From NCBI GenBank assembly GCA_023250195.1, contig JAHFBF010000001.1:562422-626421 (forward strand): DNA of 64,000 nt. Direction: 5' to 3'. Each line of letters starts with the position of its first letter. Position 1 is the stretch's first letter. Source of the stretch: Candidatus Melainabacteria bacterium. GTDB lineage: Bacteria > Cyanobacteriota > Vampirovibrionia > 2-02-FULL-35-15. The translations under genes and the position numbers were made by a program. Shown here one piece after another: positions 42,002 through 59,495 of the stretch. The notes under the pieces are model-generated. The model did not search any database, had not been told where the DNA came from, and worked only from the letters and a program-made list of their open reading frames with translations.

Positions 42002-42109
42002 TAATTTTATATTGCAAGAAAGAAGATATTTATGATTATTTACCATCCCTATGGTTGATGCTCAATACTTAAGGAACTGATATATATTGCAGAAGTTTAA
42101 CATTAAACC

Positions 42110-42547: not shown

Positions 42548-42562
42548 GTTTACTTTATTACT

Positions 42563-42585
42563 CCTTCAAACCCAAAACTCACTTT
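42563..42585. repeat. 23-bp direct repeat, left copy
   Basis: CCTTCAAACCCAAAACTCA and four further bases, matching 59874-59896 with two mismatches in 23. On the minus strand both copies read K-[VL]-SFGFEG, so they may be remnants of one gene. They lie at the two ends of the 17-kb efflux cluster. Confidence 0.55.
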
Positions 42586-42605
42586 GGTGGCTATAAGTTT
42601 TTAAA

Positions 42606-42758: not shown

Positions 42759-42766
42759 AAAACTCC

Positions 42767-43069: not shown

Positions 43070-43104
43070 GATTTTTACCTAATTTAGCCCTTTTCTTTTT
43101 ATTA

Positions 43105-43130
43105 TACCCCAACCCCCATGGCAGGGGTAA
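43105..43130. promoter_or_regulatory. CsoR-type copper operator
   Basis: TACCCC, then ACCCCCATGGCAGGGGT (43112-43128): paired C and G tracts around an AT-containing centre, as in known CsoR boxes. It lies in the divergent promoter between the YHS protein and the EGKCG protein genes; a csoR-type gene follows at 43811. Confidence 0.65.
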
Positions 43131-43219
43131 TAAAATGGGTATACTAAAGATAAGAATTACATAAAATGATTATAATTTTGTTAAACTTAGCGATATCCCC
43201 AAATCAAGGAGAGTAAATC

Positions 43220-43744
43220 ATGAAAAAGAATAAAAAAGTAAGAAAGAGTTCAGTTATAGCTGCATTAGCAATTATGCTAGGAGTCCCTGTGCAGACTAAT
43301 GCCATAGATGATACTTTAAGAAATCACTTGTTCAGCTTAAAAGAGATTGGAAAAGAACCTACTTTGTTAGTAGAACATAACTGTGGAGAAGGAAAATGTG
43401 GTGGTGAAGGTAAGTGTGGTGGAGGAGCAGGTACAGTAACAAAGCCTGTTGAAGAAATAAAGCCACAACCACAAGAGACTACAGTAAAACCACCTGAAGA
43501 AGTAAAACCTCAGCCACAAGATACAACTGTAAAACCTACTGAAGAAGTGAAGCCTCAAGTGCAAGATGCTACTACAAAACCACCAGAGGAAGTAAAACCA
43601 CAACCACAGGCTCCTATAGCTAAACCTGTTGAAGTAAAAGTAGAGCCAAAGGTTATTGAAATAAAACCAAAAAGTGAAGAGACAAAAAATACTAAGCCAC
43701 TAAAAAGAAGTAAAAGACCTGAAAGAAAGACTAAGGCAAACTAG
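43220..43744 (+). CDS. Exported EGKCG-motif protein with proline-rich tandem repeats
   Basis: A 174-residue protein. Residues 1-28 are a signal peptide ending TNA. HNCGEGKCGGEGKCGGGAG (54-72) has the spaced E-G-K-C-G motif known from DUF2282/BufA1 bufferins, small copper-storing precursors. The next 75 residues are about four imperfect 17-residue repeats of the type KPPEEVKPQPQDTTV. The C-terminus is strongly basic (KRSKRPERKTKAN). GGAGAG precedes the ATG. It differs from ordinary bufferins by the Pro/Glu/Lys repeats. A periplasmic metal-binding or wall-associated role is likely. Confidence 0.65.
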   Translation: MKKNKKVRKSSVIAALAIMLGVPVQTNAIDDTLRNHLFSLKEIGKEPTLLVEHNCGEGKCGGEGKCGGGAGTVTKPVEEIKPQPQETTVKPPEEVKPQPQDTTVKPTEEVKPQVQDATTKPPEEVKPQPQAPIAKPVEVKVEPKVIEIKPKSEETKNTKPLKRSKRPERKTKAN

Positions 43745-43810
43745 GGACTATTACTATCGTTTAAACTTCATTAAGAGACAGTAGTCTTAAAGAAAAAGAA
43801 AGGAATAATT

Positions 43811-44086
43811 ATGCTACATCAAAATCCAAAAGTTAAAAAAGATGTTCTCAAGCGTTTATCATTCATTATTGGACACCTTAAAGGTGTTAGCAATATGGTT
43901 GAAGAAGATAAATACTGCATTGATGTAGTTAAACAAATACAAGCAGTTCAATCTGCACTGAACAAAGTTACTGAGATTGTACTAGAAGACCACCTTAAAA
44001 CTTGTGTAAGCCATGCAATTAAAAAAGGTGAAGGGCACAAATTAATAAAAGAAGTAATGGAAACTATTAAGCAAACTAACAAATAA
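43811..44086 (+). CDS. csoR: CsoR/RcnR-family metal-responsive repressor
   Basis: A 91-residue all-helical regulator (DUF156). KKDVLKRLSFIIGHLKGVSNMVEEDKYCIDVVKQIQAVQSAL is diagnostic. The Cu(I)-type ligands are Cys in DKYCIDV and, in the next helix, His and Cys in EDHLKTCV. These fit the C-H-C set of CsoR and not the set of RcnR. AAAGAAAGGAATAATT precedes the ATG. It starts the csoR-cusC-cusB-cusA operon with only 3 bp to the next gene, and probably binds the operator at 43105-43130. Confidence 0.88.
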   Translation: MLHQNPKVKKDVLKRLSFIIGHLKGVSNMVEEDKYCIDVVKQIQAVQSALNKVTEIVLEDHLKTCVSHAIKKGEGHKLIKEVMETIKQTNK

Positions 44087-44089
44087 TTT

Positions 44090-45385
44090 ATGTTTAAAAA
44101 AACAACAATTTTCTTATTTGTTTTGATGCTGGTATTTAAGCCATGCTTTGCAGAAAATACTGGAACAATTGACTTGAATAGTGCAAATGAGGGAACTACT
44201 AAGACAACATCCTTGCAAGAGTTAATTCAGGAAGCTACATCTAAAAATCCTTTACTTCTATCACTTGGTTATCAAATTACAGCTCAAGGTGCTAGAGCAT
44301 CATGGATTAAAGTAAGACCAGACCCAACGTTTACAAACTCAACAAACACTGACAAGTATCCATTCAGATATCAATCACTTGGTGCAGACCCAGTAAATCA
44401 AGTTCAATTCTCACTAGGGCAAGATTTTCCATTTCCTGGCAAACTTAAATTAAAAGGCAGGGTGGAAACATCAGAACTTTCAAAGATTAAACAAGACTAT
44501 GACCTGGTAAAACTTGAGCTTACTAGCAGATTAAAAAAAGCATATTATGATTTATTTTTTACAACCAAATCTCTTGAAATCACAGAAGAAATAAAATTAT
44601 TGCTTGAAACACTTGCTAACACAGTAAAAGCAAAATATGAAGTGGGCGAAGGAAATCAGCAAGATTTACTAAAACTACAGCTTGAAGTTTCTAAGCTGCT
44701 TGATTTAATTGAAACATTAAAAAAAGATAGAGAAGTTTTTATTAGTGAAATTAATAGCATAGTTGTAAGACCTCAAGGGACAGACATTGAAGAATTAGAA
44801 GAAGTAACAAAACAACCAGTCAGTCTTAAACTTTCAGAGCTTCTAGGAATGTACAAAGAACGATATCCGCTTTTACTTGGTCAAAAAGCATTAATTGAAA
44901 AAAGCCAGTATGGAATTAAACTGGCAAAGAAAGAATATTATCCTGATTATAGTTTTGAAGGTGGCTATGGGCTAAGAAGCCAGCCATTTTCACCTATGTA
45001 CATATTTCAGGTAATGACCTCACTTCCAGTTTATTACCGTTCAAAACAAAGAAAACAAGTAGAGGAAGCAGTTGCAAGTCTTAAAGCACAAGAAGAAAAC
45101 TATCATGCAATAGTTATTGAAGCTGAAAAGAAAATAAAGAACCTCCATATTCAAATTGAAAAAAATAATACTCTGCTTGAACTTTTAGAGACTGGTCTAA
45201 TCCCACAAGCAAGATTGACCCTTGATGCTTCAGTTGCTGCATATAAGGTAGATAAGACTGACTTTTTGAATCTGCTAGACAACATAAGAACTTTACTTGA
45301 GTTTCAAATTAAATACTATAAGCGTTTAACAGATTACCAAAAAGCTATTGCTGAGCTTGAACCATTAGTAGGGAGAGAATTATGA
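44090..45385 (+). CDS. TolC-family outer-membrane factor of a Cus-like pump
   Basis: A 431-residue outer-membrane efflux protein. A signal peptide (FKKTTIFLFVLMLVFKPCFA) is followed by paired TolC repeats with long helices, including LKKAYYDLFFTTKSLEITEE and the second-repeat counterpart YHAIVIEAEKKIKNLHIQIE. LSLGQDFPFPGKLKLKG is typical of the metal-pump subgroup. It overlaps the adaptor gene by 4 bp. It would form the outer-membrane exit duct. Confidence 0.88.
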   Translation: MFKKTTIFLFVLMLVFKPCFAENTGTIDLNSANEGTTKTTSLQELIQEATSKNPLLLSLGYQITAQGARASWIKVRPDPTFTNSTNTDKYPFRYQSLGADPVNQVQFSLGQDFPFPGKLKLKGRVETSELSKIKQDYDLVKLELTSRLKKAYYDLFFTTKSLEITEEIKLLLETLANTVKAKYEVGEGNQQDLLKLQLEVSKLLDLIETLKKDREVFISEINSIVVRPQGTDIEELEEVTKQPVSLKLSELLGMYKERYPLLLGQKALIEKSQYGIKLAKKEYYPDYSFEGGYGLRSQPFSPMYIFQVMTSLPVYYRSKQRKQVEEAVASLKAQEENYHAIVIEAEKKIKNLHIQIEKNNTLLELLETGLIPQARLTLDASVAAYKVDKTDFLNLLDNIRTLLEFQIKYYKRLTDYQKAIAELEPLVGREL

Positions 45386-46689
45386 AAAATATTTTAAAAA
45401 TACTTGTAATAGTTACTATATCAGTATCCATTGGTTTTGGAATCGCAAAGTTTAACCTTATTCCAAACTTTTTTTCAAAGAGTCAACAAGCTAAAAGTAC
45501 ATTATATGTTTGTCCTATGCACCCTACTTACACCAGTGATAGACCAGGTGATTGTCCAATCTGTGGGATGAGACTTGTAAAAAAAGAAGGAAGTAAAAAT
45601 GCAAAAATTGTTGAAAGAAAAATGCCAATGGATATGGAAGAAGGAAAAGAAGAGTCTTTTAAATTAGAAATTGACCCTGCCAAACAACAATATATCGGTA
45701 TTAAAGTAACTAAAGCAATTAAAAAAGATGCGAAGAAAGAAATTAAAGCACTAGGCACTATTGTTCCTGATGAAACTAAACTAACTCACATACATACCAA
45801 GTTTTCAGGTTATGTACATCATGTTTTTGCAGATTACGAGGGTAAGTTAATTCAAAAAGGTCAACCACTGTTTACGGTTTATAGTCCTGAACTTGTAAGC
45901 ACTCAAGAGGAATATTTGCTTGCACTTGAAGCAGAAAAAAAATTAAAAGGAAACAGATTTCCAGAAATTGATAAATCTCAAAGTGCTTTAGTTGAAGCTG
46001 CAAAAAGAAGACTAGAATTGTGGGATATTACAGATGAGCAAATAAATAAATTAAGAGAAACAAAACAAGCTACTAAAGAACTAACAATTTATTCCCATGT
46101 AGATGGATTTATAACAAAAAGAGAGGTCTTTGAAGGAACAGAGATTGCACCACATGAAACACTCTACGACATTGCAGATTTATCTAAGGTCTGGGTTTTT
46201 GTTGAAGTTTATGAAGTTGACTTGCCTTTTGTAATGATTGGTCAAAGTGCAACAATTAATTTCCAATATGGAGGAGAAAAATCACTTACTGGAAAAATCA
46301 CATACATTTCTCCTGTAATTGACCCAACAACTAGGACAGCAAAGGTAAGGCTTGAAGTAAATAATTCTGGATATAAATTGAAGCCTGATATGTATGTAAA
46401 TGCTGTCATATTAAGTGATGTTGGTAAACAAATTGTTGTACCCACAAGAGCAGTAATTGATAGTGGAGAAAGAAAAATAGTTTTTGTTAAGTCGGGAAAG
46501 GGACAATTTACTCCACAAGAAGTAGAGCTAGGTCCTGAAGTAAATGACGAACGTGTAATTTATTCTGGTTTAAATGAAGGAGATGAAGTAGTAACTGATG
46601 GTAATTTTCTTCTTGATTCAGAAAGTAACTTAGAGACTGCACTCCAGCAGATGAAAACAACAGGTGGTCATGGTGGTCACAAGATGTAG
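45382..46689 (+). CDS. CusB-like RND periplasmic adaptor with heavy-metal-binding domain
   Basis: A 435-residue membrane-fusion protein. It has an N-terminal anchor (ILVIVTISVSIGFGIAKF). A small metal-binding domain follows: LYVCPMHPTYTSDRPGDCPICGM (40-62), typical of Cus/Sil adaptors. The barrel-sandwich hybrid is FSGYVHHVFADYEGKLIQKGQPLFTVYSPEL, then hairpin helices and beta-barrel (GQSATINFQYGGEKSLTGKITYISPVIDPTTRT). The C-terminus ends GGHGGHKM, a His/Met metal site. The gene overlaps its neighbour upstream by 4 bp. Confidence 0.92.
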   Translation: MKNILKILVIVTISVSIGFGIAKFNLIPNFFSKSQQAKSTLYVCPMHPTYTSDRPGDCPICGMRLVKKEGSKNAKIVERKMPMDMEEGKEESFKLEIDPAKQQYIGIKVTKAIKKDAKKEIKALGTIVPDETKLTHIHTKFSGYVHHVFADYEGKLIQKGQPLFTVYSPELVSTQEEYLLALEAEKKLKGNRFPEIDKSQSALVEAAKRRLELWDITDEQINKLRETKQATKELTIYSHVDGFITKREVFEGTEIAPHETLYDIADLSKVWVFVEVYEVDLPFVMIGQSATINFQYGGEKSLTGKITYISPVIDPTTRTAKVRLEVNNSGYKLKPDMYVNAVILSDVGKQIVVPTRAVIDSGERKIVFVKSGKGQFTPQEVELGPEVNDERVIYSGLNEGDEVVTDGNFLLDSESNLETALQQMKTTGGHGGHKM

Positions 46690-46705
46690 GTAACATAGGT
46701 AAGAA

Positions 46706-49700
46706 ATGATAAACAAAATTATTGATTATTGTGGAAAGAACTTATTAATTGTTTTCATTTTTATTATTTTTTTTACAGTGGGTTCAGTAGTAGCTATAAA
46801 AAGTGTTCCACTTGATGCAATTCCTGATCTAAGTGATGTCCAAGTAATTGTTTTTACTGAATGGAAAGGAAGAAATCCAAGAATAATTGAAGACCAGATT
46901 ACTTATCCTATTGTTACAAAACTCCTTTCTGCTCCTAAAGTAAAAGTTGTAAGAGGACAATCGTTTTTTGGTCTTTCATTTATTTATGCAATATTTGAAG
47001 ATGGTACTGATATTTACTGGGCTCGTAGTAGAGTACTTGAATATTTAAACAGTATTAAAGGTAAACTTCCCAAAGAAGTTAATCCAACCATTGGTCCTGA
47101 TGCAACTGGCGTAGGCTGGGTTTATCAATATATTCTTTTAGATAAGCACAATAAATACGATCTTGCTCAACTTAGAACATTTAATGACTGGTACTTAAGG
47201 TATTGGCTTGCGTCTGTTGCTGGTGTTAGTGAAGTAGCAAGTGTTGGTGGATATGAAAAACAGTATCAAGTAGAAGTTGACCCAAATAAACTAAGAGCTT
47301 ACAAAATATCAATCCAAAAAGTAATAGAAGCTATAAGAAGCAGTAATAATGATACAGGTGCAAGAAGTTTAGAGCTTGCAGGGCATGAGTTTCTTATAAA
47401 TGTTTCTGGCTACATTAAAAAGGTAGAAGATGTTGAAAAGGTTGTATTAGGTACAAAACCAAATGGTGTTCCAATTAGGGTAAGTGATGTAGCTTATGTT
47501 CATCTTGGACCTAACATGAGACGTGGAGTTGCTGATTATAACGGAAAAGGTGAAGTAGTCGGTGGAATAATTGTAATGCGTCATGGAGAAAATGCACTCC
47601 ATGTTATTGACCGTGTTAAAGAAAAAATCAATGATATAAAGAAAAGTCTGCCAAAAGGGGTAGAAATTGTCCCTGTTTATGACCGTTCTGATTTAATTTT
47701 AAAATCAATTGATACTTTAAAAAGAACCTTAATTGAAGAATCAATAGTTGTAGCACTTGTAATTATTATTTTCTTATTTCACCTCCCTAGTTCTTTTGTT
47801 GTAATTATTACTCTGCCAATTGCAGTAATGATGTCATTTATTCCAATGTATTTTATGGGTTTAACTTCAAATATTATGTCTCTTGGTGGAATAGCAATTG
47901 CAATTGGGGCAATGGTAGATTCTGCAATTGTAATGGTTGAAAATGCACATAAACATCTTGAAAGATGGGAAGAAACCGGAAAGAAAGAACCCAGAATACA
48001 AGTGATTATGAACGCTGCAAAAGAAGTTGGTCAACCATTATTTTTTGCACTCCTTATTATTACTGTATCTTTTATGCCAATCTTTGCTCTTGAAGCACAA
48101 GAAGGAAGGTTATTTAAACCACTTGCTTACACCAAAACTTTTTCAATGTTCTTTGCAGCTCTCTTATCTATTACTTTAATTCCAGCTCTAATGGGAATCT
48201 TTATTAGAGGGAAAATACAACCAGAAACACATAACCCTATAAACAGGTTTTTAATTAAAGTCTATGACCCAATAATTAGGTATGTTTTAAAAGCACCAAA
48301 AATGGTAATTGCAATTAGCGGACTAATCTTTATTTTAAGTTTGCCAGTAATTGGAAGTTTAGGTTCTGAGTTTATGCCACCTTTAAATGAAGGTACTCTT
48401 TTATATATGCCAAGTTCATTACCAGGTATTGGTATTTCTGAAGCGTCAAGGCTCTTACAGATTCAAGACAAGATAATTAAAAAGGTTCCTGAGGTTTTAT
48501 CTGTTTTTGGGAAAGTAGGTAGAGCTGATACATCAACAGATCCAGCACCACTTGATATGTATGAAACTATTATTAATTTAAAACCAAAAGAAAAATGGAG
48601 ACCTGGAATTACTTGGGATAAGTTGATTGAAGAGTTAGATAAATTATTAAAACTTCCAGGTACAACCAATGCCTGGACAATGCCCATAAAAACCAGATTA
48701 GATATGCTGACAACTGGTGTAAGAACTCCAATTGGAATTAAAATATTTGGTTCTGATTTAAAAGTAATAGAACAAATTGGACAAGAAATTGAAAGATTGA
48801 TAAAAAATGTAAAAGGTACAAGAAGTGTTTATGCTGAACGTGCTGGTTCTGGATATTATATGAATATAAATATTGACAGAGAGAAGATTGCAAGACATGG
48901 ATTAACTATAGAAAGTGTTGAAATGGTTATTGAATCAGCACTTGGCGGTGAAGAACTGACAACTACAGTTGAAGGCAAGGAAAGATATACAGTAAATGTT
49001 AGATATTTGCGTGAACTTAGAGATACACCAGAAAAAATAAAAAATATTTATATTGAATCACCACTTGGATATCAGATTCCACTTTCTGAAGTTGCTGAGG
49101 TAAAACTTGAAACTGGTCCAATGCAAATAAGAGATGAAGATGCTTCCCTAGTCGGTTTTGTTTATATTGATATAACAGATAGAGATATTGGTAGTTATGT
49201 AGATGATGCTAAAAAAGTTTTAAATAAAGAATTAAAATTGCCTGCTGGTTATGGACTTGAATGGACTGGACAATATGAGTTCTTACAAAGAATTGAAAAA
49301 AGATTAGCTCTAATTATTCCTCTTACTATATTTATTATTTTCTTTTTCCATTACATGGCATTTAATTCAACTATAAAGTCTTTAATGGTAATGCTTTCTG
49401 TTCCCTTTGCACTAATTGGTAGTTTATGGTTTTTACTTTTGTATAAGTTTCATTTTAGTGTTGCTGTTGGAGTTGGCTTAATTGCACTTATGGGAGTAGC
49501 AATTGAAACAGCTATTGTTATGATTATATTTCTTGATGAGGCTTACGAGAGACATTTAAAAGCTGGAAGATTAAATACCATAAAAGATTTAGAAGATGCA
49601 GTACATGAAGGTGCAGTTCAAAGAGTAAGACCAAAGTTAATGACAGTATGTGTTGGAATAGCTGGACTTCTTCCAATCATGTGGAGTCATGGAGCTGGTG

Positions 49701-49831
49701 CAGATGTAATGCAAAGAATTGCAGCACCTATGATTGGTGGATTGATTACCTCTACCATTTTAGTTTTGGTTATTGTACCTGCGATTTATTTTTTGTGGAG
49801 GAAAAAAGAGCTTTCAAAGACAAATCAATGA
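46706..49831 (+). CDS. CusA-like heavy-metal RND efflux transporter
   Basis: A 1041-residue inner-membrane proton-driven pump with 12 transmembrane segments and two large periplasmic loops. Diagnostic segments are VPLDAIPDLSDVQVIVFTEWKGRNP, TDIYWARSRVLEYL, PVYDRSDLI and GAMVDSAIVMVENAHKHLERW, whose acidic residue carries protons. LNEGTLLYMPSSLPGI, TPIGIKIFG and VYAERAGSGYYMNI are CusA-type blocks; together they favour Cu(I)/Ag(I). It completes the csoR-cusCBA operon and converges with the MerR-type gene (stops at 49831/49832). Confidence 0.94.
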   Translation: MINKIIDYCGKNLLIVFIFIIFFTVGSVVAIKSVPLDAIPDLSDVQVIVFTEWKGRNPRIIEDQITYPIVTKLLSAPKVKVVRGQSFFGLSFIYAIFEDGTDIYWARSRVLEYLNSIKGKLPKEVNPTIGPDATGVGWVYQYILLDKHNKYDLAQLRTFNDWYLRYWLASVAGVSEVASVGGYEKQYQVEVDPNKLRAYKISIQKVIEAIRSSNNDTGARSLELAGHEFLINVSGYIKKVEDVEKVVLGTKPNGVPIRVSDVAYVHLGPNMRRGVADYNGKGEVVGGIIVMRHGENALHVIDRVKEKINDIKKSLPKGVEIVPVYDRSDLILKSIDTLKRTLIEESIVVALVIIIFLFHLPSSFVVIITLPIAVMMSFIPMYFMGLTSNIMSLGGIAIAIGAMVDSAIVMVENAHKHLERWEETGKKEPRIQVIMNAAKEVGQPLFFALLIITVSFMPIFALEAQEGRLFKPLAYTKTFSMFFAALLSITLIPALMGIFIRGKIQPETHNPINRFLIKVYDPIIRYVLKAPKMVIAISGLIFILSLPVIGSLGSEFMPPLNEGTLLYMPSSLPGIGISEASRLLQIQDKIIKKVPEVLSVFGKVGRADTSTDPAPLDMYETIINLKPKEKWRPGITWDKLIEELDKLLKLPGTTNAWTMPIKTRLDMLTTGVRTPIGIKIFGSDLKVIEQIGQEIERLIKNVKGTRSVYAERAGSGYYMNINIDREKIARHGLTIESVEMVIESALGGEELTTTVEGKERYTVNVRYLRELRDTPEKIKNIYIESPLGYQIPLSEVAEVKLETGPMQIRDEDASLVGFVYIDITDRDIGSYVDDAKKVLNKELKLPAGYGLEWTGQYEFLQRIEKRLALIIPLTIFIIFFFHYMAFNSTIKSLMVMLSVPFALIGSLWFLLLYKFHFSVAVGVGLIALMGVAIETAIVMIIFLDEAYERHLKAGRLNTIKDLEDAVHEGAVQRVRPKLMTVCVGIAGLLPIMWSHGAGADVMQRIAAPMIGGLITSTILVLVIVPAIYFLWRKKELSKTNQ

Positions 49832-50260
49832 TTAAACTTTGACCTTATCAATCATCTTACAAACATTACTTTTATTTGATTTACTATCTTCCTCATGGCA
49901 GCAGTTTAAAATGTATCTTTTTAAATCCCTTTCAATTAATTTTAAATTTTTTATTTTTTCTCTAAGTTCTATTATTTTTCTCTGTGCTAAATCTCTAACT
50001 TTTGGACATGGTGATTTTCCAGAATTTCTTTCTCGTAGAATAAGTTTTATTTCATCTAAAGTAAATCCAATATTCTGAGCTTTTTTAATAAATACAACTA
50101 ACTGAACATCATCTTTTTTGTAGTATCTGTATTTAGCACTAGATTTATCTGCGGGTTGGACAAGACCAATTTCTTCATAGTATCTTAATGTACTAACTGT
50201 AGTACCTATAATTTTGGCTATTTCACCAATTTTTATTAGACCTTTAAGATTATTTTCCAT
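49832..50260 (-). CDS. MerR-family metal-responsive activator
   Basis: A 142-residue regulator starting MENNLKGLIKIGEIAKIIGTTVSTLRYYEEIGLVQP, the MerR winged helix. A dimerisation helix (AQRKIIELREKIKNLKLIERDLKRYI) follows. Cysteines lie at SPCPKVRDL, LNCC and NVCKMI; their spacing is like Cys82/117/126 of MerR and its lead and cadmium relatives. An upstream in-frame start at 50284 is less likely. It is divergent from the MerC-like operon, and the classical elongated-spacer operator lies between. The inducer is a soft divalent metal, possibly mercury. Confidence 0.88.
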   Translation of the reverse strand: MENNLKGLIKIGEIAKIIGTTVSTLRYYEEIGLVQPADKSSAKYRYYKKDDVQLVVFIKKAQNIGFTLDEIKLILRERNSGKSPCPKVRDLAQRKIIELREKIKNLKLIERDLKRYILNCCHEEDSKSNKSNVCKMIDKVKV

Positions 50261-50277
50261 TTTTAGGACTATCCCTG

Positions 50278-50309
50278 TTGACACTCAAGTTAACTTTAGA
50301 GTGTACATT
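50278..50309 (+). promoter_or_regulatory. MerR-type promoter/operator with 20-bp spacer
   Basis: TTGACA (-35, 50278-50283) and TACATT (-10, 50304-50309) are 20 bp apart. The spacer CTCAAGTTAACTTTAGAG is an inverted repeat centred on GTTAAC. This layout is the hallmark of MerR/ZntR/CadR-activated promoters. Confidence 0.75.
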
Positions 50310-50354
50310 TATATTGTACCCAAAAATTAGGAAGTTAAAAATGAAAGATGAACA

Positions 50355-50786
50355 ATGAAAAAACTAAACGTGGAAAAAATGAACCTTGTAGCACTCGTCT
50401 CTGCTATTGGAGCTGCCTTAACACCAAAGCTTGTATGTCCTGTATGTTGGCCAGCATATGTGGCTCTAGCAAGTGCTCTTGGACTTGGCTTTTTGATCAA
50501 TACAAAAAATCTTTTGATCATTTCAATTGTTTTTCTTTTAATAGCTCTTATTGCACTATATAGTCAATGCAAAAAGAGGAAGGACTTCAAACCATTTTGG
50601 CTTGGTCTTGCTGGTGCTTTACTTATCCTTGTTGGAAGATTTGTTCTGGGCAATTTGATTATTCTATATAGTGGGGCTGTACTTTTAGTATTTGCTTGTA
50701 TTCATAATGTTTTTGATTTTTGGCTAAAAAGAAAGAAAAAAGACTGTATGAGTTGTGAAAGTGAAATAAAAACGGAGGTGAATTAA
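50355..50786 (+). CDS. MerC-like membrane transporter
   Basis: A 143-residue protein with four transmembrane segments. PKLVCPVCWPAYVALASALGLGFL puts a CxxC pair in the first helix, as in MerC/MerT-type mercury uptake proteins. KKKDCMSCESE near the C-terminus is a second CxxC at the membrane surface. An alternative start at 50379 would remove eight residues. It lies behind the MerR-type promoter and 1 bp before the thioredoxin-like gene. Metal uptake in the absence of a mercuric reductase would be odd, so sequestration or another metal is possible. Confidence 0.75.
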   Translation: MKKLNVEKMNLVALVSAIGAALTPKLVCPVCWPAYVALASALGLGFLINTKNLLIISIVFLLIALIALYSQCKKRKDFKPFWLGLAGALLILVGRFVLGNLIILYSGAVLLVFACIHNVFDFWLKRKKKDCMSCESEIKTEVN

Positions 50787-50787
50787 T

Positions 50788-51063
50788 ATGACAAATAAAC
50801 GAAAAGTAGAGGTGTTTACAGCTGGCTGTCCAGTATGTAAACCAGTAGTAGAGTTGGTTAACCAGTTAGCATGTTCTTCATGCGATGTGATTATTTATGA
50901 CATTAGGGAAGGTTGTGAGACTAACGAATGCAGAGATAAGGTCAAAGCTTATGGCATTACACAACTGCCAGCTATAGCAGTTGATGGCAAGCTTCTTGAT
51001 TGTTGTAAGAAAAACAATATTACAAAAGAATCGCTGCAAGCTGCTGGAATTGGAGTCAGATAA
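50788..51063 (+). CDS. Thioredoxin-like protein with CPVC active site
   Basis: A 91-residue thioredoxin-fold protein. VEVFTAGCPVCKPVVELV carries the CPVC site. GITQLPAIAVDGKLLDCC has the cis-proline and a CC pair, and ACSSCDV and REGCETNEC add cysteines, nine in all. GGAGG precedes the ATG. It follows the MerC-like gene after one base. Possible roles are metal transfer or thiol exchange in the mercury-like module. Confidence 0.75.
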   Translation: MTNKRKVEVFTAGCPVCKPVVELVNQLACSSCDVIIYDIREGCETNECRDKVKAYGITQLPAIAVDGKLLDCCKKNNITKESLQAAGIGVR

Positions 51064-51108
51064 ATTGTCATCGTTTAGTACAGGCAGAATTTGTTAGATT
51101 GAATAATT

Positions 51109-51294
51109 ATGCAGATGACTTTAAGTTCAAAAATAAAATGTCCTGAATGTGGATTTGAAAAAGAAGAAACCATGCCAACTAATTATTGTTTATTTTTTTA
51201 TACTTGTACTAAGTGCAAATCAATGTTGAAACCTAAAAAAGGTGATTGTTGCGTTTTTTGTTCATATGGTACTGTGAAATGTCCACCAAAATAA
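51109..51294 (+). CDS. GDCCVxCSYG-family small cysteine-rich protein
   Basis: A 61-residue protein, perhaps starting at the second Met (MTLSSKI). It has CPECGFEKEE, CTKCKSMLKPKKGDCCVFCSYGTVKCPP: a zinc-ribbon-like fold ending in the GDCCVFCSYG motif. From memory, proteins with this motif accompany mercury and other metal resistance genes. Function is not established. It ends the MerR-controlled group. Confidence 0.7.
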   Translation: MQMTLSSKIKCPECGFEKEETMPTNYCLFFYTCTKCKSMLKPKKGDCCVFCSYGTVKCPPK

Positions 51295-51376
51295 GATGAA
51301 ATAAACTATTATAATTAAAATACGACTTTAGATTTTTGTGAAGGAAGAGAGGACTTAACAAAGCTAAAATCCTATC

Positions 51377-51802
51377 TCAGTTACTATGACAATGGCAATT
51401 TAAACAACAAATGATACAACTAGGACAATGTGCCTTAGCTCGAATAGTGTAAAAGGTAGTAAAAGCACTTATTAAAAGAAATATTATTATGTAATGAGCA
51501 CAAGCATATATTTTCTTTGAGTGTTTACGAATGATTTTTCTAGCCTGGTTAATTAAGCCAGTAATCTCTTTCATTGATATTTCGTAAAAGGCTTCTCTGC
51601 CTTTTTTAACTTTAGTAACTAATCCACACTCTAAAAGACAAGATAAGTGTAGAGAAGTATTTGGTTGTGAGAGCTTTGTGATTTTTACAATTTCTGAAAC
51701 AGACTTTGGTCTTTCAATTATTGCTTCAAGAATAGATAGTCTTGAAGCATCTGCTAATCCTCTAAAAAATCTTGATTGAAGCTCAGTTTGGTCTTTTATC
51801 AT
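51377..51802 (-). CDS. ArsR/SmtB-family repressor with C-terminal membrane helix and cysteine cluster
   Basis: A 141-residue protein. Residues 1-100 are a normal ArsR winged helix (LQSRFFRGLADASRLSILEAIIERPKSVSEIVKITKLSQPNTSLHLSCLLECGLV). Cysteines in LSCLLECGL and KIYACAHY fit CmtR/CadC-like metal sites. The family normally ends near there. Here a hydrophobic helix (YIIIFLLISAFTTFYTI) and a tail HCPSCIICCLNCHCHSN with seven cysteines follow in the same frame. It is divergent from the Czc-like operon, with two inverted repeats between. The tail could tether it to the membrane or be a fused metal trap. Confidence 0.8.
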   Translation of the reverse strand: MIKDQTELQSRFFRGLADASRLSILEAIIERPKSVSEIVKITKLSQPNTSLHLSCLLECGLVTKVKKGREAFYEISMKEITGLINQARKIIRKHSKKIYACAHYIIIFLLISAFTTFYTIRAKAHCPSCIICCLNCHCHSN

Positions 51803-51814
51803 AATTTATATAGT

Positions 51815-51836
51815 TATATAAGCATACACTTATATA
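51815..51836. promoter_or_regulatory. ArsR-type inverted-repeat operator
   Basis: TATATAAG-catacA-CTTATATA, perfect 8-bp arms, lies 13 bp upstream of the ArsR-type start codon. The position and form suit autorepression. Confidence 0.6.
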
Positions 51837-51860
51837 TTAATCAAGTACTTGCCTTAAAAC

Positions 51861-51877
51861 ATAAGATAATATCTTAT
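51861..51877. promoter_or_regulatory. Second inverted repeat in the ArsR/Czc divergent promoter
   Basis: ATAAGATA-A-TATCTTAT, perfect 8-bp arms with a 1-nt centre, 80 bp before the likely TolC-family start and before TATACT (51899-51904). It shares the ATAAG core with the operator at 51815. Confidence 0.45.
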
Positions 51878-51956
51878 TTATTGGGGATAAATTAGATGTA
51901 TACTAATGTCCCAGATAACGAACTATAAGACTATATGTGCGTCCTTTAAGAATGAA

Positions 51957-53258
51957 ATGATAAGGCTAGTAATAATAATCAGTATTATATTTTTTGCTAC
52001 AGACTGCTGGGCTAAAACTTTGTTATTAGAACAAAAAAACATAAAACAAGAAGTAACAAATCAAGAGGTACCAGCTACATTAAACTTACAACAGGCAATA
52101 GACTATGCAATTAAAAACAATAAACAAATAAAAGCACTCTCAGCTACTTTACCAATTACTGAAGCAAATCTAATAATTGCAAAATATAGACCAAATCCAA
52201 TATTTTCTTCTCAAAATGAAGCTGTAAAACAAGGTTCACTTCATCCAGCTCAAATAGCGATACCGCTTGAAGTAGGAAGAAAAAGATATTGGAGAGCTAA
52301 GGTAGCTAAAGAACAAATATCCAAGACAGAACTTGAAATTAGAAAAGCAATCTGGGAAACACATACCCAGGTTCACGGCTCATATAGTCAAGTAGTTGTT
52401 TTAAACTATTTAATTGAAATTGGAAAACAAAGAAAAGAGTTTTATGAAAAGTTACTTCAAATTGCAAAAGATAGATTTAGTGCTGGTGATGTATCTGGAC
52501 TTGACCTAGAGAGAGCAAATCTTGAGCTTTTAACTGCTGAAAATGAACTTAATGAACTTCAAGGAAAATCAAAGCAGGCAAAAATAGACTTTAATTTACT
52601 TCTTGGCATTTCCCCCGATAATGAAACTGCACTTGAAAATACAGACAGCTTAAAGCCTAAAGAAAAAGTTTCTGATAATCCTGCTATTAAAGATTTGCAA
52701 ATAGATGCTCAGAAAAACAGATTTGAAATAGCAATCTTAGAAAAAGAATATGGAATTACTGAAGCACAGCTTAAACAAGCAAAGTGGGAAATAATACCAA
52801 ATCTTACTATTGAAGGTGGTGCAGTAAAGCCAAGTGTTGGAACTAATATCTGGGGACCATACTTAGCTGCTCAAGCAGAACTTCCGGTGTTTAATAGAAA
52901 ACAAGGGGAAATTAAAAAGGCAAAGGCACAGCTTGATTACTTAGAAAAAGAAGAAGATAGATTAAAACTTTTAATTCAATCTCAAATTACAGATGCACTT
53001 CAATACTTTAAAGTAAGAGAAGAACAATTAAAAAGATACGAAGAAAAGTTACTTAGTCAGTCCAAAAATATACTTGAACTAATAGAGTTTGGCTACCAAA
53101 GAGGTAAGCTATCTCTGACAGATGTATTAAATGCTGAACAAAAGAACAGGGAAGTAAAGCAAGCATATTTGCAAAGCATTTTGAATTATCAAATTGCATT
53201 TTCTAATCTTGAATATGCTCTAGGTGTACCTTTAGATAAATTAGGAGAAAAATCGTAA
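51957..53258 (+). CDS. TolC-family outer-membrane factor of a Czc-like pump
   Basis: I start at the ATG at 51957 because it yields a proper signal peptide (MIRLVIIISIIFFATDCWA). The in-frame ATG at 51906 directly abuts the -10-like TATACT. The 433-residue protein has TolC repeats: LQQAIDYAIKNNKQIKALSATLPITEANL and the equivalent later segment, with periplasmic helices (VNLERANLELLTAENELNEL-like). It is CzcC-like in layout. It is followed after 2 bp by the adaptor gene. Confidence 0.85.
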   Translation: MIRLVIIISIIFFATDCWAKTLLLEQKNIKQEVTNQEVPATLNLQQAIDYAIKNNKQIKALSATLPITEANLIIAKYRPNPIFSSQNEAVKQGSLHPAQIAIPLEVGRKRYWRAKVAKEQISKTELEIRKAIWETHTQVHGSYSQVVVLNYLIEIGKQRKEFYEKLLQIAKDRFSAGDVSGLDLERANLELLTAENELNELQGKSKQAKIDFNLLLGISPDNETALENTDSLKPKEKVSDNPAIKDLQIDAQKNRFEIAILEKEYGITEAQLKQAKWEIIPNLTIEGGAVKPSVGTNIWGPYLAAQAELPVFNRKQGEIKKAKAQLDYLEKEEDRLKLLIQSQITDALQYFKVREEQLKRYEEKLLSQSKNILELIEFGYQRGKLSLTDVLNAEQKNREVKQAYLQSILNYQIAFSNLEYALGVPLDKLGEKS

Positions 53259-53260
53259 TA

Positions 53261-54490
53261 ATGAAAAAAATAATAGCAATCTTGATTTTATTTGTATTTT
53301 CACTCCCAGCATTATCAGAGTGTGGTTGTGGAGAAACTAAGTTTAAAGCAGCTAATGAAAAAATTAGTGCAAATGAAATAGCAAAAGAAGCCTTTAATAT
53401 TGAAACTAAAAAAGTTGAAGAACAAATTGTAGATGAAGCAATAAGAACTACAGGGCAAATAGAAGAAATACCAACTAACCACTTTGATATAAATAGTCCT
53501 GTACAAGGGAAAGTTCAATCAGTTCTTGTTACTCTGGGTGATTTTGTAGGAGTTGGCAAGCCTCTTGTTGTAATTCAAAGTACAGAAATTGCAAGATTAC
53601 AAGCAGAAATAAGTCAGCTAAAAGCTGAACTTGAACTTGCAAAAAGTAATTATGAACGAGAGCAAACCCTTTATGAAAAAAGTATAAGTCCAAAAAAAGA
53701 GTTTGAAGCAGCAAAAGCAATTTTACTTAGCCAGGAAGCTAAACTAAATGCAGCTGAAAGTAATTTAAAAATACTTACTCAGCAAGACATTACTTCACAA
53801 GGTACATTTACAATAAAAGCTCAAAAAGCAGGAACTATAGTAGAAAAGAAAGTTACAGTAGGTCAGATAGTGGTTCCAGATGAATTGTTGTTTCATGGAA
53901 TAGACTTATCTAGCGTTTGGGCAAGTGCTGATATTTTTGAAAAAGACTTAGCTAAAGTTAAATTAGGTCAGATAGTAAGTGTTGTTTTAGATGGAATACC
54001 TGATAAAACATATGAAGGAAGAATAACTTATGTAGGTTCAGTAATAAACCAAGATTCTAGAACTTTACCAGTAAAAACCACTTTGCAAAACAAAGATAGT
54101 CTTTTAAAGCCAGGGGCATTTCTTCAATTTTCAGTCTTTACTGGTGAAAAGAAAAACTCAATTATTATTCCAAGAACTGCATTAGTAGAAGTAGATAAAG
54201 AAGGCACAGAAGGTAAGCATAGCCATATTGTTTACATTAAAGAAGATAAAAAGTTTATACCAAGAAAAATACAAGTTGAATCACATGATTCAAATAATGT
54301 TGAAGTAGTGTCTGGTTTAAAAGCTGGTGAAATTATTGTTACAAATGGAGCTTACCAACTTCAATTTGGAAAGAAAGAAGAAGAACATGAGCACCTAAAA
54401 CCAGAGTTTAATCTACCACCTTACTTAGTTATTATTGTTGGAATAGTAATGCTTCTAATTGGCTTCTTGTTTGGAAGAAGAAAAAGGTAA
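53261..54490 (+). CDS. CzcB-like RND periplasmic adaptor
   Basis: A 409-residue membrane-fusion protein. After a signal peptide (IIAILILFVFSLPALS) comes CGCGETKF, a cysteine motif echoing the YHS protein and the outer-membrane barrel. The hybrid domain is FDINSPVQGKVQSVLVTLGDFVGVGKPLVVIQS, with a long coiled hairpin (EISQLKAELELAKSNYERE). The C-terminus has an extra hydrophobic segment (YLVIIVGIVMLLIGFLFGRRKR), a second membrane anchor not usual in CzcB. It lies between the TolC-type and RND genes. Confidence 0.88.
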   Translation: MKKIIAILILFVFSLPALSECGCGETKFKAANEKISANEIAKEAFNIETKKVEEQIVDEAIRTTGQIEEIPTNHFDINSPVQGKVQSVLVTLGDFVGVGKPLVVIQSTEIARLQAEISQLKAELELAKSNYEREQTLYEKSISPKKEFEAAKAILLSQEAKLNAAESNLKILTQQDITSQGTFTIKAQKAGTIVEKKVTVGQIVVPDELLFHGIDLSSVWASADIFEKDLAKVKLGQIVSVVLDGIPDKTYEGRITYVGSVINQDSRTLPVKTTLQNKDSLLKPGAFLQFSVFTGEKKNSIIIPRTALVEVDKEGTEGKHSHIVYIKEDKKFIPRKIQVESHDSNNVEVVSGLKAGEIIVTNGAYQLQFGKKEEEHEHLKPEFNLPPYLVIIVGIVMLLIGFLFGRRKR

Positions 54491-54499
54491 TAAGTTTTA

Positions 54500-57400
54500 A
54501 TGATTAATAGTCTTATAAAATGGTCGCTTGAAAATAGGCTTATTGTAATTGCACTTGGAATTATTTTATTTATCTTTGGGGCAATTTCAGCAGTAAATAC
54601 ACCTGTAGATGTTTTGCCAGAGTTTGCACCACCACAAGTAGTAATTCAAACTGAAGCACCAGGATTAGCTAGTGAAGAAGTAGAAGCACTTGTTACTATT
54701 CCACTTGAAAGTGCCCTAAATGGTACTGCAAAAATCCAGACAGTAAGAAGTAGCTCCATTGAAGGACTTTCTTTTGTTACTGTAATCTTTAAATGGGGCA
54801 CTGATATATACCTAGCCAGACAGCTTGTAACTGAAAAAGTTCAGCTTGTAGCTTCAGCTTTTCCAAAAGGAATTAAAACACCAGTTCTTTCACCAGTTAC
54901 TTCCCCAATTGGAAGCGTTTATTTCTTTGCACTTACAAGTAAAAACACACCTCTAATAGACCTTAGAACGTATGCAGATTGGGAAATAAGAAATAAACTA
55001 CTTTCTATTTCAGGAATATCAAAGGTGCTAACTTATGGTGGAGATGTTAAACAGTACCAAGTTCTTGTAAGTCCAAATAAATTAAAACAATATAATGTAG
55101 GACTAGACCAGGTTATAAAAGCAGCAGATAAAGCAAATGTAATTGTTGGTGGTGGCTATTTACTTGAAGATGACAGAGAATATTTAATCCGTGGAATTGG
55201 GAAACTACAATCAATAGATGAGCTTGGAGATTCAGTTGTTGCTGTTAAAGACAATACACCTGTTTGCCTAAAGAACGTAGCTACAGTAAAAATTGGACCT
55301 GCATTTAAAAGAAGTTATGGCAGTGTAGATGGAAAAGAAGCAGTAATTGTTGCTGTTAGTAAGCAGCCTGGAATAAATACTATTGAAGTAAATAAAAGAA
55401 TCAAAGAGGCATTAGATAATTTAAAAAAGACATTGCCTAAAGATATAAAAATAACTCAGACTTATAGTCAGTCTGACTTTATAGATGTATCTATTAAAAA
55501 TATTATTTCAGCAATTATTGAAGGTTCAATACTTGTAATTATTATTTTATTTTTATTCCTTGCAAATTGGCGTACAAGTGTAATTAGCTTGACTGCTATA
55601 CCACTGTCTCTAATCGTTGCAATCTTAGTTTTAAAAGCATTTGGTCAAACTATAAATGCAATGACACTTGGTGGACTTGCTGTTGCTGTAGGGGAAATAG
55701 TAGATGATGCAATTATTGATGTTGAGAATGTTTATAAAAGGCTCAGACAAAATAAATTAAGTACAAATCCAAAACCAGCTCTTGAAGTAATATTTAATGC
55801 TTGTATTGAAGTAAGAGCTTCGGTAGTTTATGGAACCTACATAATTACAGTGGTATTTTTACCAGTACTATTTTTAAGCGGTCTTGCAGGGCAAATATTT
55901 AAACCACTGGCACTTGCTTATATAATTTCAATTTTTGCTTCGCTGTTTGTAGCCCTAACACTTACTCCTGCAATGTGTTTTTATCTAATTTCAAAAGATA
56001 AAGACCTAAAAGAACATGAACCTAAACTACTTACTAAAATTAAAGAAAAATATACAAAGCTATTAGATTCAATTTTAGAAAAACCAAAGAAATTAGTTAT
56101 TTCAACAGTCTCAATATTAGTTATTGCACTTGGTATTTTCTTCTTTGTTGGCTGGTCATTTTTACCAGAACTTGGAGAAGAAAACCTTGTCATTATGGCA
56201 ATTTCTCCACCAGGTACTAGCTTAAAAGCTACACAAGGAGTTGCATTAACTATGGAAAAAGTTTTGCACAAATATTCAGGAATTATAAGGGTTGGAAATA
56301 GAGCTGGTAGGTCTGAATCTGATGATGAACCAATAACAGCTAATATCAGCCACTTTGATGTAACTCTTAAGCAAGGTATTTCTCAAGGTAACAAAGAAAG
56401 ATTAATTGAAAACATTAGAGAAGATTTTGAACAGTTACCAGGTGTTATTACCTTAATTAGGTCATTTATTACTGAAACAATTGAACAAGTTGTAACAGGA
56501 GAAAGAGCACCAATTGTACTTAAGTTATACGGCAATGACCTTGAGATTTTAAGAAAATATGCAGGTGATATTGTAGAGGTACTAGAAGAAATAAAGTCAC
56601 TGGAAGAAGTACAAATAGAGCCAATATTTGATATACCTCAGGTTCATATAAAAATTAAAAGAAAAATTGCAAGTAGATATGGTCTAAGTGTAGGAGACTT
56701 GGCAACTACAATTCAAGCAGCTTTTAATGGGGTAGCAGCACCACAAAGAGTAATAGAAGGACAAAAAGCATTTGATTTATTCGTTTGGTTTGAAAAGCCT
56801 TATAGAAATAATATTGAGGTTATAAAAAGCACTTTAATAGATACACCAACAGGAGCTAAAGTACCGCTTGGTCAGATTGCAGATGTTATTGAATCTACAG
56901 GACCAAATATTATAAATAGAGAAAAGGTTTCAAGAAGAATAGTAGTTCAGGCAAATGCTAAAAAGGGTGATATTTCAAAAGCAGTAGAAAAAGCACAAGC
57001 ACTAATTAGTAAAAAGATAAAGTTTCCTGAAGGATATTTCCTTGATTTTGAAGGTGAATACCAACAGCAAAAAGAAGCAAACAGTAAATTACTTTTACTT
57101 AGCCTTTTAATACTCGCTGGAATATTTTTAATACTTTCTCTTGCATTTAAGTCATTTAAGATAGCCTCAATAATTATGGTTAATCTACCGCTTGCTTTAA
57201 TCGGTGGGGTGGTTGCCATTGCTTTCTTTGGTGGGGTAATAAGCATTGCAAGTGTAATTGGGTTTATAACTTTATTTGGACTTTCAACAAGAAACACAAT
57301 ACTACTTGTAAACAGGTTCTTTGATATTCAAAAAGAAAATCCTAATATGCAAATAAACCAAGTAATTAAGCAGGGAGCACTTGATAGACTTCCACCAATA

Positions 57401-57571
57401 ATCATGACAGCACTTACGGCAGCATTTGCAATGCTCCCTCTTGCACTTTTTCCTGGTGCTGGGCGTGAAATTGAACACCCACTTGCAATAGTAATCTTAG
57501 GTGGAATGTTCTCAGCTACTGCTTTAACACTTTTAGTTATACCTGTGGTTTATAAGAGGTTTCATAAGTAG
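54500..57571 (+). CDS. CzcA-like heavy-metal RND efflux transporter
   Basis: A 1023-residue proton-driven pump. VDVLPEFAPPQVVIQTEAPGL, TDIYLARQLVTEKVQL and GEIVDDAIIDVENVYKRLRQN (proton-relay Asp pair) are family blocks. It differs clearly from the CusA-like pump at 46706 in this motif (DDAIIDVEN against DSAIVMVEN). Large periplasmic loops are present in both halves. The substrate is probably a divalent ion (Zn, Cd, Co) or nickel, but the sequence does not decide. It is third in the ArsR-controlled operon, 7 bp before the P-type ATPase. Confidence 0.92.
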   Translation: MINSLIKWSLENRLIVIALGIILFIFGAISAVNTPVDVLPEFAPPQVVIQTEAPGLASEEVEALVTIPLESALNGTAKIQTVRSSSIEGLSFVTVIFKWGTDIYLARQLVTEKVQLVASAFPKGIKTPVLSPVTSPIGSVYFFALTSKNTPLIDLRTYADWEIRNKLLSISGISKVLTYGGDVKQYQVLVSPNKLKQYNVGLDQVIKAADKANVIVGGGYLLEDDREYLIRGIGKLQSIDELGDSVVAVKDNTPVCLKNVATVKIGPAFKRSYGSVDGKEAVIVAVSKQPGINTIEVNKRIKEALDNLKKTLPKDIKITQTYSQSDFIDVSIKNIISAIIEGSILVIIILFLFLANWRTSVISLTAIPLSLIVAILVLKAFGQTINAMTLGGLAVAVGEIVDDAIIDVENVYKRLRQNKLSTNPKPALEVIFNACIEVRASVVYGTYIITVVFLPVLFLSGLAGQIFKPLALAYIISIFASLFVALTLTPAMCFYLISKDKDLKEHEPKLLTKIKEKYTKLLDSILEKPKKLVISTVSILVIALGIFFFVGWSFLPELGEENLVIMAISPPGTSLKATQGVALTMEKVLHKYSGIIRVGNRAGRSESDDEPITANISHFDVTLKQGISQGNKERLIENIREDFEQLPGVITLIRSFITETIEQVVTGERAPIVLKLYGNDLEILRKYAGDIVEVLEEIKSLEEVQIEPIFDIPQVHIKIKRKIASRYGLSVGDLATTIQAAFNGVAAPQRVIEGQKAFDLFVWFEKPYRNNIEVIKSTLIDTPTGAKVPLGQIADVIESTGPNIINREKVSRRIVVQANAKKGDISKAVEKAQALISKKIKFPEGYFLDFEGEYQQQKEANSKLLLLSLLILAGIFLILSLAFKSFKIASIIMVNLPLALIGGVVAIAFFGGVISIASVIGFITLFGLSTRNTILLVNRFFDIQKENPNMQINQVIKQGALDRLPPIIMTALTAAFAMLPLALFPGAGREIEHPLAIVILGGMFSATALTLLVIPVVYKRFHK

Positions 57572-57578
57572 ATTAGAT

Positions 57579-59495
57579 ATGAATGAAGAAGCTAATGAAA
57601 AATATTTTGATGGCAAATGGTATACTCACCCAAATATTAAAAGCCCTTTAATAGCTGGATTTATTACAACAGTTTCATTTGTTTTACTTTATTTCAATTT
57701 TATAGATAAAAACATAGGAAATGTTTTGTATGTAATAGCAATAATTTATGGTGGTTATCATTGGGCTTTTGAAGGATTAAATGAGTTACTTAAAGAAAAG
57801 AAGGTCGGTATTGAGATATTAATGCTTTGTGCTACGGTTGGCTCCTCATTTATTGGAATGTTAAATGAAGCAGCATTACTTGTTTTTTTATATGGATTTG
57901 CTGAAGGGCTTGAAGAATATACTTATTCTAAAACTAAGGCTTCAATTAAAAAGCTATTGAACCTGGTGCCTACTAAAGCACGTGTAATAGATACTAACAA
58001 TAAAGAAAAAGAAATACTTGCCGAGGAGCTAAAAATAGGAGATATTTTTATAGTAAGACCAGGAGAAATAATCCCTACCGATGGGGTAATACTTAAAGGC
58101 AAATCAAGTATCAATGAAGCCACTATTACGGGTGAATCAGTTCCAGTAGAAAAGAAAGAAGGGATTAAAGTCTTTGCTGGAACTCTTAGCCTTGATGGAT
58201 TACTTGAAGTAAGGGTAACTGAAAACTTTAAAAACAATACTATATCTAAAATTATTAATCTTGTTCAAGAAGCACAAGAACAAAAGAGTAAATCACAGCT
58301 TTTTATTGAAAAGTTTGGAAATATTTACTCTCCAATTATTTTGGCTGTCTCTATCTTTATAATCCTTGCCTGCTTAATGTTCCATACACATGATTCTTTT
58401 ATAGGGATAAAACAAGCAATTACTTTTTTAGTGGCAGCATCTCCCTGTGCACTAATTATTTCAATGCCAGTAGCTACAGCAGCAGGAATAGGTAGAGCTG
58501 GCAGAAATGGTGTTTTGATAAAAGGTGGAATGCACTTGGAAAATCTTGGGAAAGTTAAAGTATTTGCTTTTGATAAAACAGGCACTTTAACAAAAGGCAA
58601 ACCAATTGTAACTGATTTGATTTCTTTAAGTAATGAGCAGGATATTTTATCAATTGCATATAGTGTTGAAAAGTTTTCACAACACCCACTTGCAAAGGCA
58701 GTAGTAGAAAAAGCCTTAGAAGAAAATATTAAAACTTTTGATATTCAAGATTTTATTTCTATAGCAGGTATGGGAGTAAAAGCAAAAGTAAATAATAGAA
58801 ACATCTATATTGGTAAGGAAAAAATGTTTTCTGAAAATATGTTTAGCAAAGAAGCTGTTTCAAAGATACAAAATCTAAAAGAAGAAGGAAAAAGTTTAAT
58901 GGTTATAGGAGATGATGAACAACTAATTGGGATTATTGGCTTTAGAGACGAGATTAAAGCTAGTGCTAAAGAAACAATTACAAAGTTAAAAAGTATGGGT
59001 ATTGAAGTTACAATGTTGACTGGTGATAATGAAACAACAGCTCAAATATATGCAAATGAACTTGGCATTTCTAAAGTAATAGCAAATCTTAAGCCAGAAG
59101 ATAAAACCAGAATTATTGGGGAGTTAGAGGAAAAATACAATACAGTAGCAATGGTAGGAGATGGAATTAATGATGCACCAGCTCTTGCAAGAGCAACAAT
59201 TGGCATTGCAATGGGAGTAGCTGGTACAGATGCTGCAATAGAAGCTGCTGATATAGCCCTAATGTCTGACGATTTGAAGAAATTAATTTATGCTGTTGAA
59301 TTAGGGAAAAAATCAAATGCAATCAGTATCCAAAATGTCATATTTTCTATTTTAGTTTTACTTATATTAATTCCTTCTTCATTATTTAGTTTAATAAGTG
59401 TAACTTTTTCTGTTGCTGCACATGAGATTTCTGAATTGTTGGCAGTTGCAAATGGACTAAGAGTTGGGAAAGAAAAGTTAGTTTATGAGAGTTGA
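57579..59495 (+). CDS. P1B-type heavy-metal-translocating ATPase
   Basis: A 638-residue ATP-driven metal exporter without N-terminal metal-binding domains. The actuator loop has TGES. The transmembrane metal site is SPC (AASPCALIISMP), not CPC. The phosphorylation site is DKTGTLTKG, the nucleotide site HPLAKAVVE, and GDGINDAPALA is the hinge. The last helix has AAHEISELLAVANGL, reminiscent of the HE[GI]xx motif of the P1B-4 group (Co, Fe, Zn). It works with the Czc-like pump: the ATPase empties the cytoplasm and the RND pump empties the periplasm. Confidence 0.93.
   Translation: MNEEANEKYFDGKWYTHPNIKSPLIAGFITTVSFVLLYFNFIDKNIGNVLYVIAIIYGGYHWAFEGLNELLKEKKVGIEILMLCATVGSSFIGMLNEAALLVFLYGFAEGLEEYTYSKTKASIKKLLNLVPTKARVIDTNNKEKEILAEELKIGDIFIVRPGEIIPTDGVILKGKSSINEATITGESVPVEKKEGIKVFAGTLSLDGLLEVRVTENFKNNTISKIINLVQEAQEQKSKSQLFIEKFGNIYSPIILAVSIFIILACLMFHTHDSFIGIKQAITFLVAASPCALIISMPVATAAGIGRAGRNGVLIKGGMHLENLGKVKVFAFDKTGTLTKGKPIVTDLISLSNEQDILSIAYSVEKFSQHPLAKAVVEKALEENIKTFDIQDFISIAGMGVKAKVNNRNIYIGKEKMFSENMFSKEAVSKIQNLKEEGKSLMVIGDDEQLIGIIGFRDEIKASAKETITKLKSMGIEVTMLTGDNETTAQIYANELGISKVIANLKPEDKTRIIGELEEKYNTVAMVGDGINDAPALARATIGIAMGVAGTDAAIEAADIALMSDDLKKLIYAVELGKKSNAISIQNVIFSILVLLILIPSSLFSLISVTFSVAAHEISELLAVANGLRVGKEKLVYES

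Follow-up and report, generated by a model that had tools for sequence, protein, structure and literature searches.

In textbook accounts, repressors of the ArsR/SmtB family are soluble proteins that sense metal in the cytoplasm; the sensing of metal in the periplasm is generally ascribed to two-component systems or to sigma/anti-sigma pairs. Among the closest described systems, CmtR of Mycobacterium tuberculosis (Rv1994c) is a soluble Cd/Pb repressor proposed to bind both metals via C57, C61, and C102 (PMC1665450). PacL of the same organism is composed of a membrane helix and a metal-binding tail, and its gene accompanies those of CmtR/CsoR and of P-type ATPases (PMC13043812, PMC9374683). Transmembrane transcription regulators, in which a DNA-binding domain and at least one membrane helix share a chain, are common, and more than a hundred types of DNA-binding domain occur in them (PMC10269533). 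The principle of giving a regulator a membrane helix is therefore not new; the main text of that survey names no ArsR or metal-sensing example. ToxR, TcpP, E. coli CadC, and BcrR have an N-terminal DNA-binding domain, a single membrane helix, and a C-terminal part predicted to lie outside.

We analyzed a window of 64,000 nucleotides (the whole stretch of DNA under study, from contig JAHFBF010000001.1 of a Candidatus Melainabacteria bacterium), in which one gene joins a CmtR-like domain in frame to a hydrophobic helix and a cysteine-rich tail. With a probability of roughly 0.55, we regard its product as a membrane-tethered CmtR-type repressor of the adjacent metal pump operon, probably bearing its thiol tail on the outer side. 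The gene and its parts are as follows.

51377-51802, minus strand: CmtR-like ArsR/SmtB regulator with a predicted C-terminal membrane helix and a Cys-rich tail (141 amino acids plus stop)
51503-51802, minus strand: ArsR/SmtB winged-helix domain, residues 1-100 (Pfam/NCBIfam, structure model, and PDB matches)
51626-51640, minus strand: recognition-helix codons from C55 through C59 (CLLEC); C55 and C59 pair with CmtR C57/C61
51500-51502, minus strand: codon of C101, at the position where CmtR-like relatives have a conserved terminal Cys (YECTRY-stop)
51440-51496, minus strand: predicted transmembrane helix, residues 103-121 (hydropathy and AlphaFold, moderate confidence)
51380-51430, minus strand: Cys/His tail HCPSCIICCLNCHCHSN, residues 125-141, kept in the relative SW_12 as HCPxCxxxCxxCHCHSN

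The fusion protein shares with CmtR the ArsR/SmtB fold, the recognition-helix Cys pair (C55/C59 versus C57/C61), a C-terminal Cys (C101 versus C102), and a gene position beside metal efflux genes, but CmtR has no membrane helix, and the fusion adds a hydrophobic helix and a six-Cys tail. Like PacL, it has a small membrane helix with a putative metal-binding tail in the setting of an efflux system under CmtR or CsoR control. PacL, however, is a separate protein with a cytoplasmic tail and no DNA-binding domain, and its defining order (first a helix at the N-terminus, then Ala/Glu repeats and a metal-binding motif; PMC13043812) is not that of the fusion, from which the repeats are absent. The fusion has the predicted layout of ToxR, TcpP, CadC, and BcrR, and hydropathy and the structure model place a DNA-binding domain and at least one predicted membrane helix in its single chain. 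It differs from them in having an ArsR/SmtB repressor fold with a cytoplasmic metal site of its own and, as its outer part, a 17-residue thiol tail instead of a folded sensor domain. The OmpR-type domain typical of ToxR and CadC (Trans_reg_C) had no match in the fusion, for which Pfam gave HTH_5 and related winged-helix families. The original prediction knew of no standard ArsR protein of this form, and we likewise found no membrane-anchored ArsR/SmtB protein of this kind described in the open-access literature.

The fusion gene and its orthologue

The predicted architecture of an ArsR domain followed in frame by a hydrophobic helix and a Cys tail was borne out by the open reading frame, by hydropathy, and by matches to Pfam HTH_5 (1e-14; 54.6 bits, cutoff 22) and NCBIfam HTH_metalloreg (69.8 bits, cutoff 55). 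The tail had been called a seven-cysteine tail; its letters were given exactly, but HCPSCIICCLNCHCHSN holds six cysteines (residues 126, 129, 132, 133, 136, and 138), and the seventh, C101, lies ahead of the helix. Among the 191 open frames of at least 60 amino acids in the window, this is the only one with at least six Cys in its last 17 residues.

Among 146 related genomes, we found one full-length relative (67% identity over residues 4-141), encoded on JAGVKQ010000010.1 of Candidatus Caenarcanales bacterium SW_12, which belongs to the same family as the source genome of the window but to a separate genus. Across helix and tail, the alignment of the two proteins has no internal gaps; identity is 66-67% overall and 60% in residues 87-141, and both proteins end in RAKAHCPxCxxxCxxCHCHSN. 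Because an in-frame orthologue with an identical helix-tail layout exists in another genus, a frameshift between two genes, which the original prediction had named as a possible refutation, is ruled out, as are sequencing error and chance read-through. The second refutation that it named was relatives in which the tail is absent and unexpressed. Ordinary relatives from other families do lack the tail, but the sole true orthologue retains it.

Between the window and SW_12 genes, pN was lower than pS both in the helix and tail (0.23 versus 0.55) and, similarly, in the ArsR domain (0.20 versus 0.65). As only two members are known, the constraint on the tail is that of a single pair of genes, 18 codons, and about 10 synonymous sites. 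These figures bear on the idea that the C-terminal part is a recent, largely idle extension, created when loss of a stop codon opened the frame into downstream DNA. Its confinement to two genomes and the tail-less ordinary relatives are what such an event would leave behind. Yet both genera retain the tail, with HCPxCxxxCxxCHCHSN identical and with the pN and pS values above, and at this divergence drift would probably have broken the frame, so that we consider an idle tail very improbable.

A search for the architecture, proposed with the original prediction, recovered the in-frame fusion in SW_12 and in no other genome among several hundred. The fused form was confined to these two genomes both with the tail as query (382 genomes of the class) and with a two-member profile (386 genomes of the phylum, a set that overlaps the first). 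When the tail alone was searched against the 382 class genomes, the matches beyond the two true members were at noise level (best 4.5e-4), and many crossed stop codons. Matches extending beyond the stop codon in genomes of other families were traced to alignment overrun past ordinary CmtR-like genes and were rejected. No significant match to the tail was found in plasmids (best E 0.8), single-sequence scans of genome and viral contigs gave no relatives, and neither did an alignment scan of the viral contigs. Within the collections searched, which comprised several hundred genomes, viral contigs, and plasmids, the fused form is rare.

Putative metal site and predicted membrane helix

The relatives from other families are ordinary proteins of 103-117 amino acids with 37-44% identity to the fusion. 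In an alignment of 12 relatives (ten of these proteins and the two fusions), C55, C59, and C101 were invariant in all 12. A phmmer alignment to M. tuberculosis CmtR (2jsc) pairs C55/C59 with C57/C61; it ends before the third Cys, and C101 is assigned as the counterpart of C102 by the relatives and by spacing. The NCBIfam CmtR equivalog model scored 51.6 bits, under its cutoff of 150, and we therefore term the protein CmtR-like and not CmtR; judged by sequence, its ArsR part falls within the CmtR (Cd/Pb) branch. The tail-less CmtR-like relatives of another family also adjoin CzcC-, CzcB-, or CadA-like genes.

Most tail-less relatives end in ...ECTRY plus at most one residue (also ...FYECTRY-stop), and a few are 4-11 residues longer. 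The window protein reads YACAHY at this point and runs straight into the helix. C101 sits where the ordinary relatives end, which indicates that the normal C-terminus is where helix and tail were appended; as aligned, the added part starts just beyond this presumed third ligand.

Mean Kyte-Doolittle hydropathy over residues 98-116 of the window protein (a 19-residue window) was 1.87. The best such windows were 1.85 in SW_12 and at most 0.94 in two tail-less relatives; both orthologues thus exceed the usual membrane threshold, and no charged residue lies inside the helix. An AlphaFold model built on the 12-sequence alignment gave the ArsR fold with confidence (residues 11-90 have pLDDT above 90). 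The PDB fold matches were Rv0081, SmtB, and CzrA. The model placed one helix at residues 78-101 and a separate helix at 103-121 with moderate confidence (pLDDT about 52-70), while the C-terminal end was disordered or unmodelled.

ArsR/SmtB proteins dimerise via terminal helices, and the added helix might accordingly be packed in the dimer interface without spanning the membrane, the tail then forming a second cytoplasmic metal site. The K/R residues on both sides of the helix would suit such an arrangement. Against it stand the mean hydropathy of 1.85-1.87 over 19 residues in both orthologues, a helix free of charges, and tail-less relatives that manage without such a helix, and we judge a buried, non-spanning helix unlikely. 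For the membrane-tethered repressor that we prefer, the 15 residues ahead of the helix contain six K/R and no acidic residue, and two K/R follow the helix, which favors an N-in/C-out orientation; since K/R residues do follow the helix, the topology is not certain. On this charge pattern, the DNA-binding domain is probably cytoplasmic and the tail probably on the outer (periplasmic) face.

Pump operon, candidate operator, and proposed mechanism

The fusion arsR gene and a tightly packed operon, czcC-czcB-czcA-P-type ATPase (51906-59495), are arranged divergently.

51815-51836, no strand assigned: inverted repeat TATATAAG-CATACA-CTTATATA, probable operator between arsR and czcC
51906-53258, plus strand: czcC-like outer membrane efflux protein, whose gene opens the divergent operon
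53261-54490, plus strand: czcB-like periplasmic adaptor
54500-57571, plus strand: CusA/CzcA family RND pump (TIGR00914, 780.8 bits against a cutoff of 701)
57579-59495, plus strand: cadmium-family P-type ATPase (TIGR01512, 510 bits against a cutoff of 313.5)

In SW_12, the fusion arsR is likewise divergent from czcCBA, and its CzcC is 80% identical to that of the window. Behind the SW_12 fusion gene lie a gene for a 51-amino-acid helix-plus-Cys protein, a YHS gene, a gene for a 42-amino-acid helix-plus-Cys protein, and a MerR gene. In a genome of the same genus (G002), the order is MerR / 42aa-YHS-p50-czcCBA, and no ArsR gene separates p50 from czcC. As pump genes occur there without the ArsR gene, the fusion regulator is optional, a module that sits ahead of the pump genes. 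In the same genome (L092, 8063-15083), MerR is divergent from 42aa-YHS-p50-czcC-czcB-czcA, an arrangement that points to MerR as the regulator of the pump in the absence of the ArsR fusion.

The inverted repeat ATATAAGCATNNACTTATAT is common to the arsR-czcC intergenic regions of the window and SW_12, as is TTATATAAGCATNNACTTATAT beside the arsR start. The best ungapped 24-base window between the two regions was identical at 21 of 24 positions, against a maximum of 20 in 300 dinucleotide shuffles. The 20-bp core of the repeat occurs exactly once in the source genome and once in SW_12, both times at arsR-czcC, which supports a small local regulon made up of the pump operon and the regulator's own gene. 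None of the nine further family genomes contained an exact match, and their number of two-mismatch matches (three) was near that of a reversed-pattern control (two). A scan with the consensus sigma-70 promoter did no better than on shuffled sequence. The repeat at 51815-51836, conserved between the two arsR-czcC regions, is probably an operator of the inverted-repeat kind that ArsR/SmtB proteins have at their own or target promoters.

In the mechanism that we propose, a cytoplasmic dimer of the ArsR/SmtB domain would bind this repeat and, when bound, repress its own gene as well as the czcCBA-cadA operon. Binding of metal at C55, C59, and C101 would cause release of the DNA; the likeliest metals are Cd and Pb, with Zn, Hg, or Cu possible. 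The single transmembrane helix directly after C101 would anchor the repressor, and the Cys/His tail would emerge, most likely in the periplasm, where it could bind the metal that the RND pump removes. Through the helix beside C101, the tail may tune DNA release, or it may serve as a local thiol buffer. The original prediction had suggested a membrane-anchored sensor, which fits the conserved helix and tail, the CmtR-type site, the common repeat beside the pump operon, and the strongly positive N-terminal flank that predicts a cytoplasmic DNA-binding domain. If correct, such a repressor would be a single-protein route to sensing metal in the compartment that RND pumps empty, and a worked case of a soluble regulator gaining a membrane anchor at an existing ligand-bearing C-terminus. 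A direct test is feasible, as one small gene and a 22-bp site are all that is involved.

A stronger version, which we put forward tentatively and with clearly less than an even chance, is a one-component transmembrane sensor with two metal sites across the inner membrane, the inner CmtR site and the outer thiol tail, joined by the helix. The helix starts about two residues past the inner presumed ligand C101. Were this version true, the cell could compare cytoplasmic with periplasmic metal before releasing the RND pump operon.

Helix-plus-cysteine proteins of the lineage

The tail had also been said to resemble a 50-residue protein encoded at 42606-42758 (minus strand), which consists of a hydrophobic helix and a short Cys-rich end and had no family match. 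Its gene is genuine and conserved, with 80-92% identity in four other family genomes, mostly right behind a YHS-domain gene. The likeness holds in kind, as such proteins of 50-51 amino acids have a helix and then a Cys-rich end, as the fusion does, and the SW_12 one adjoins the fusion gene there. Homology is not supported: the 50-residue protein has no significant sequence similarity to the ArsR tail (segment-preserving shuffles, p = 0.58 for helix and tail and 0.28 for tail; hhalign probability 0.4%), and descent of the tail from it is unsupported. For the 51-amino-acid neighbor and the fusion of SW_12, the shuffles gave p = 0.003 (helix and tail) and 0.013 (tail), a weak signal.

Mini-proteins of 41-45 amino acids that begin with a helix (signal or anchor) and finish in a CxC-rich stretch such as NCPCGTSCACSPCNCGK occur in nine of 11 family genomes, often encoded beside CsoR or MerR genes (L104-L117, e.g., L104 1501-1659 and L111 1498-1653; in the source genome, G000:C6:394653-394772). 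Some showed weak, sub-cutoff matches to plant metallothionein models, and in sequence they look like exported or anchored mini-metallothioneins. For a possible descent of the fusion tail from these proteins, the hhalign probability was 23% and shuffles were mostly non-significant. At 43220-43744 (plus strand), a putative exported protein carries NCGEGKCGGEGKCGGG followed by long P/E/K/V repeats; it resembles the RiPP metallophore precursor HvfA weakly, with a score below the cutoff.

Since helix-plus-Cys mini-proteins are so many, membrane-bound thiol tails appear to be a local theme, and the fusion could be one more instance: a repressor with ordinary CmtR action at the cytoplasmic site, whose helix only places it at the membrane and whose tail is a metallothionein-like buffer near the pump that leaves DNA binding unaffected. 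The frequency of 41-51-amino-acid proteins of this kind beside CsoR or MerR genes in the same lineage and the intact set of three CmtR-type cysteines agree with this account. Repressors, however, are made in few copies and hence are poor metal buffers, and almost no linker separates C101 from the helix, which makes coupling of the helix to the metal site likely. We therefore consider a purely buffering tail rather unlikely. The original alternative of a fused regulator and trap fits the same anatomy, though an origin of the tail from the 50-residue protein is unsupported. For the membrane-tethered repressor, the short connection at C101 is the point at which the tail could act on the metal site.

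A MerC-like protein, a thioredoxin-like protein with extra Cys, and a GDCCVxC-domain protein are encoded at 50355-51294 (plus strand) in a small cluster divergent from MerR, and no mercuric reductase was seen among the listed open reading frames nearby. A metal-resistance block of about 19 kb (40883-59495) comprises a permease, CsoR, two RND systems, MerR/MerC, the GDCCVxC protein, and a P-type ATPase. It adjoins a gene that we identified by eye as a probable site-specific recombinase (39361-40476, minus strand), and together they look like a mobile island.
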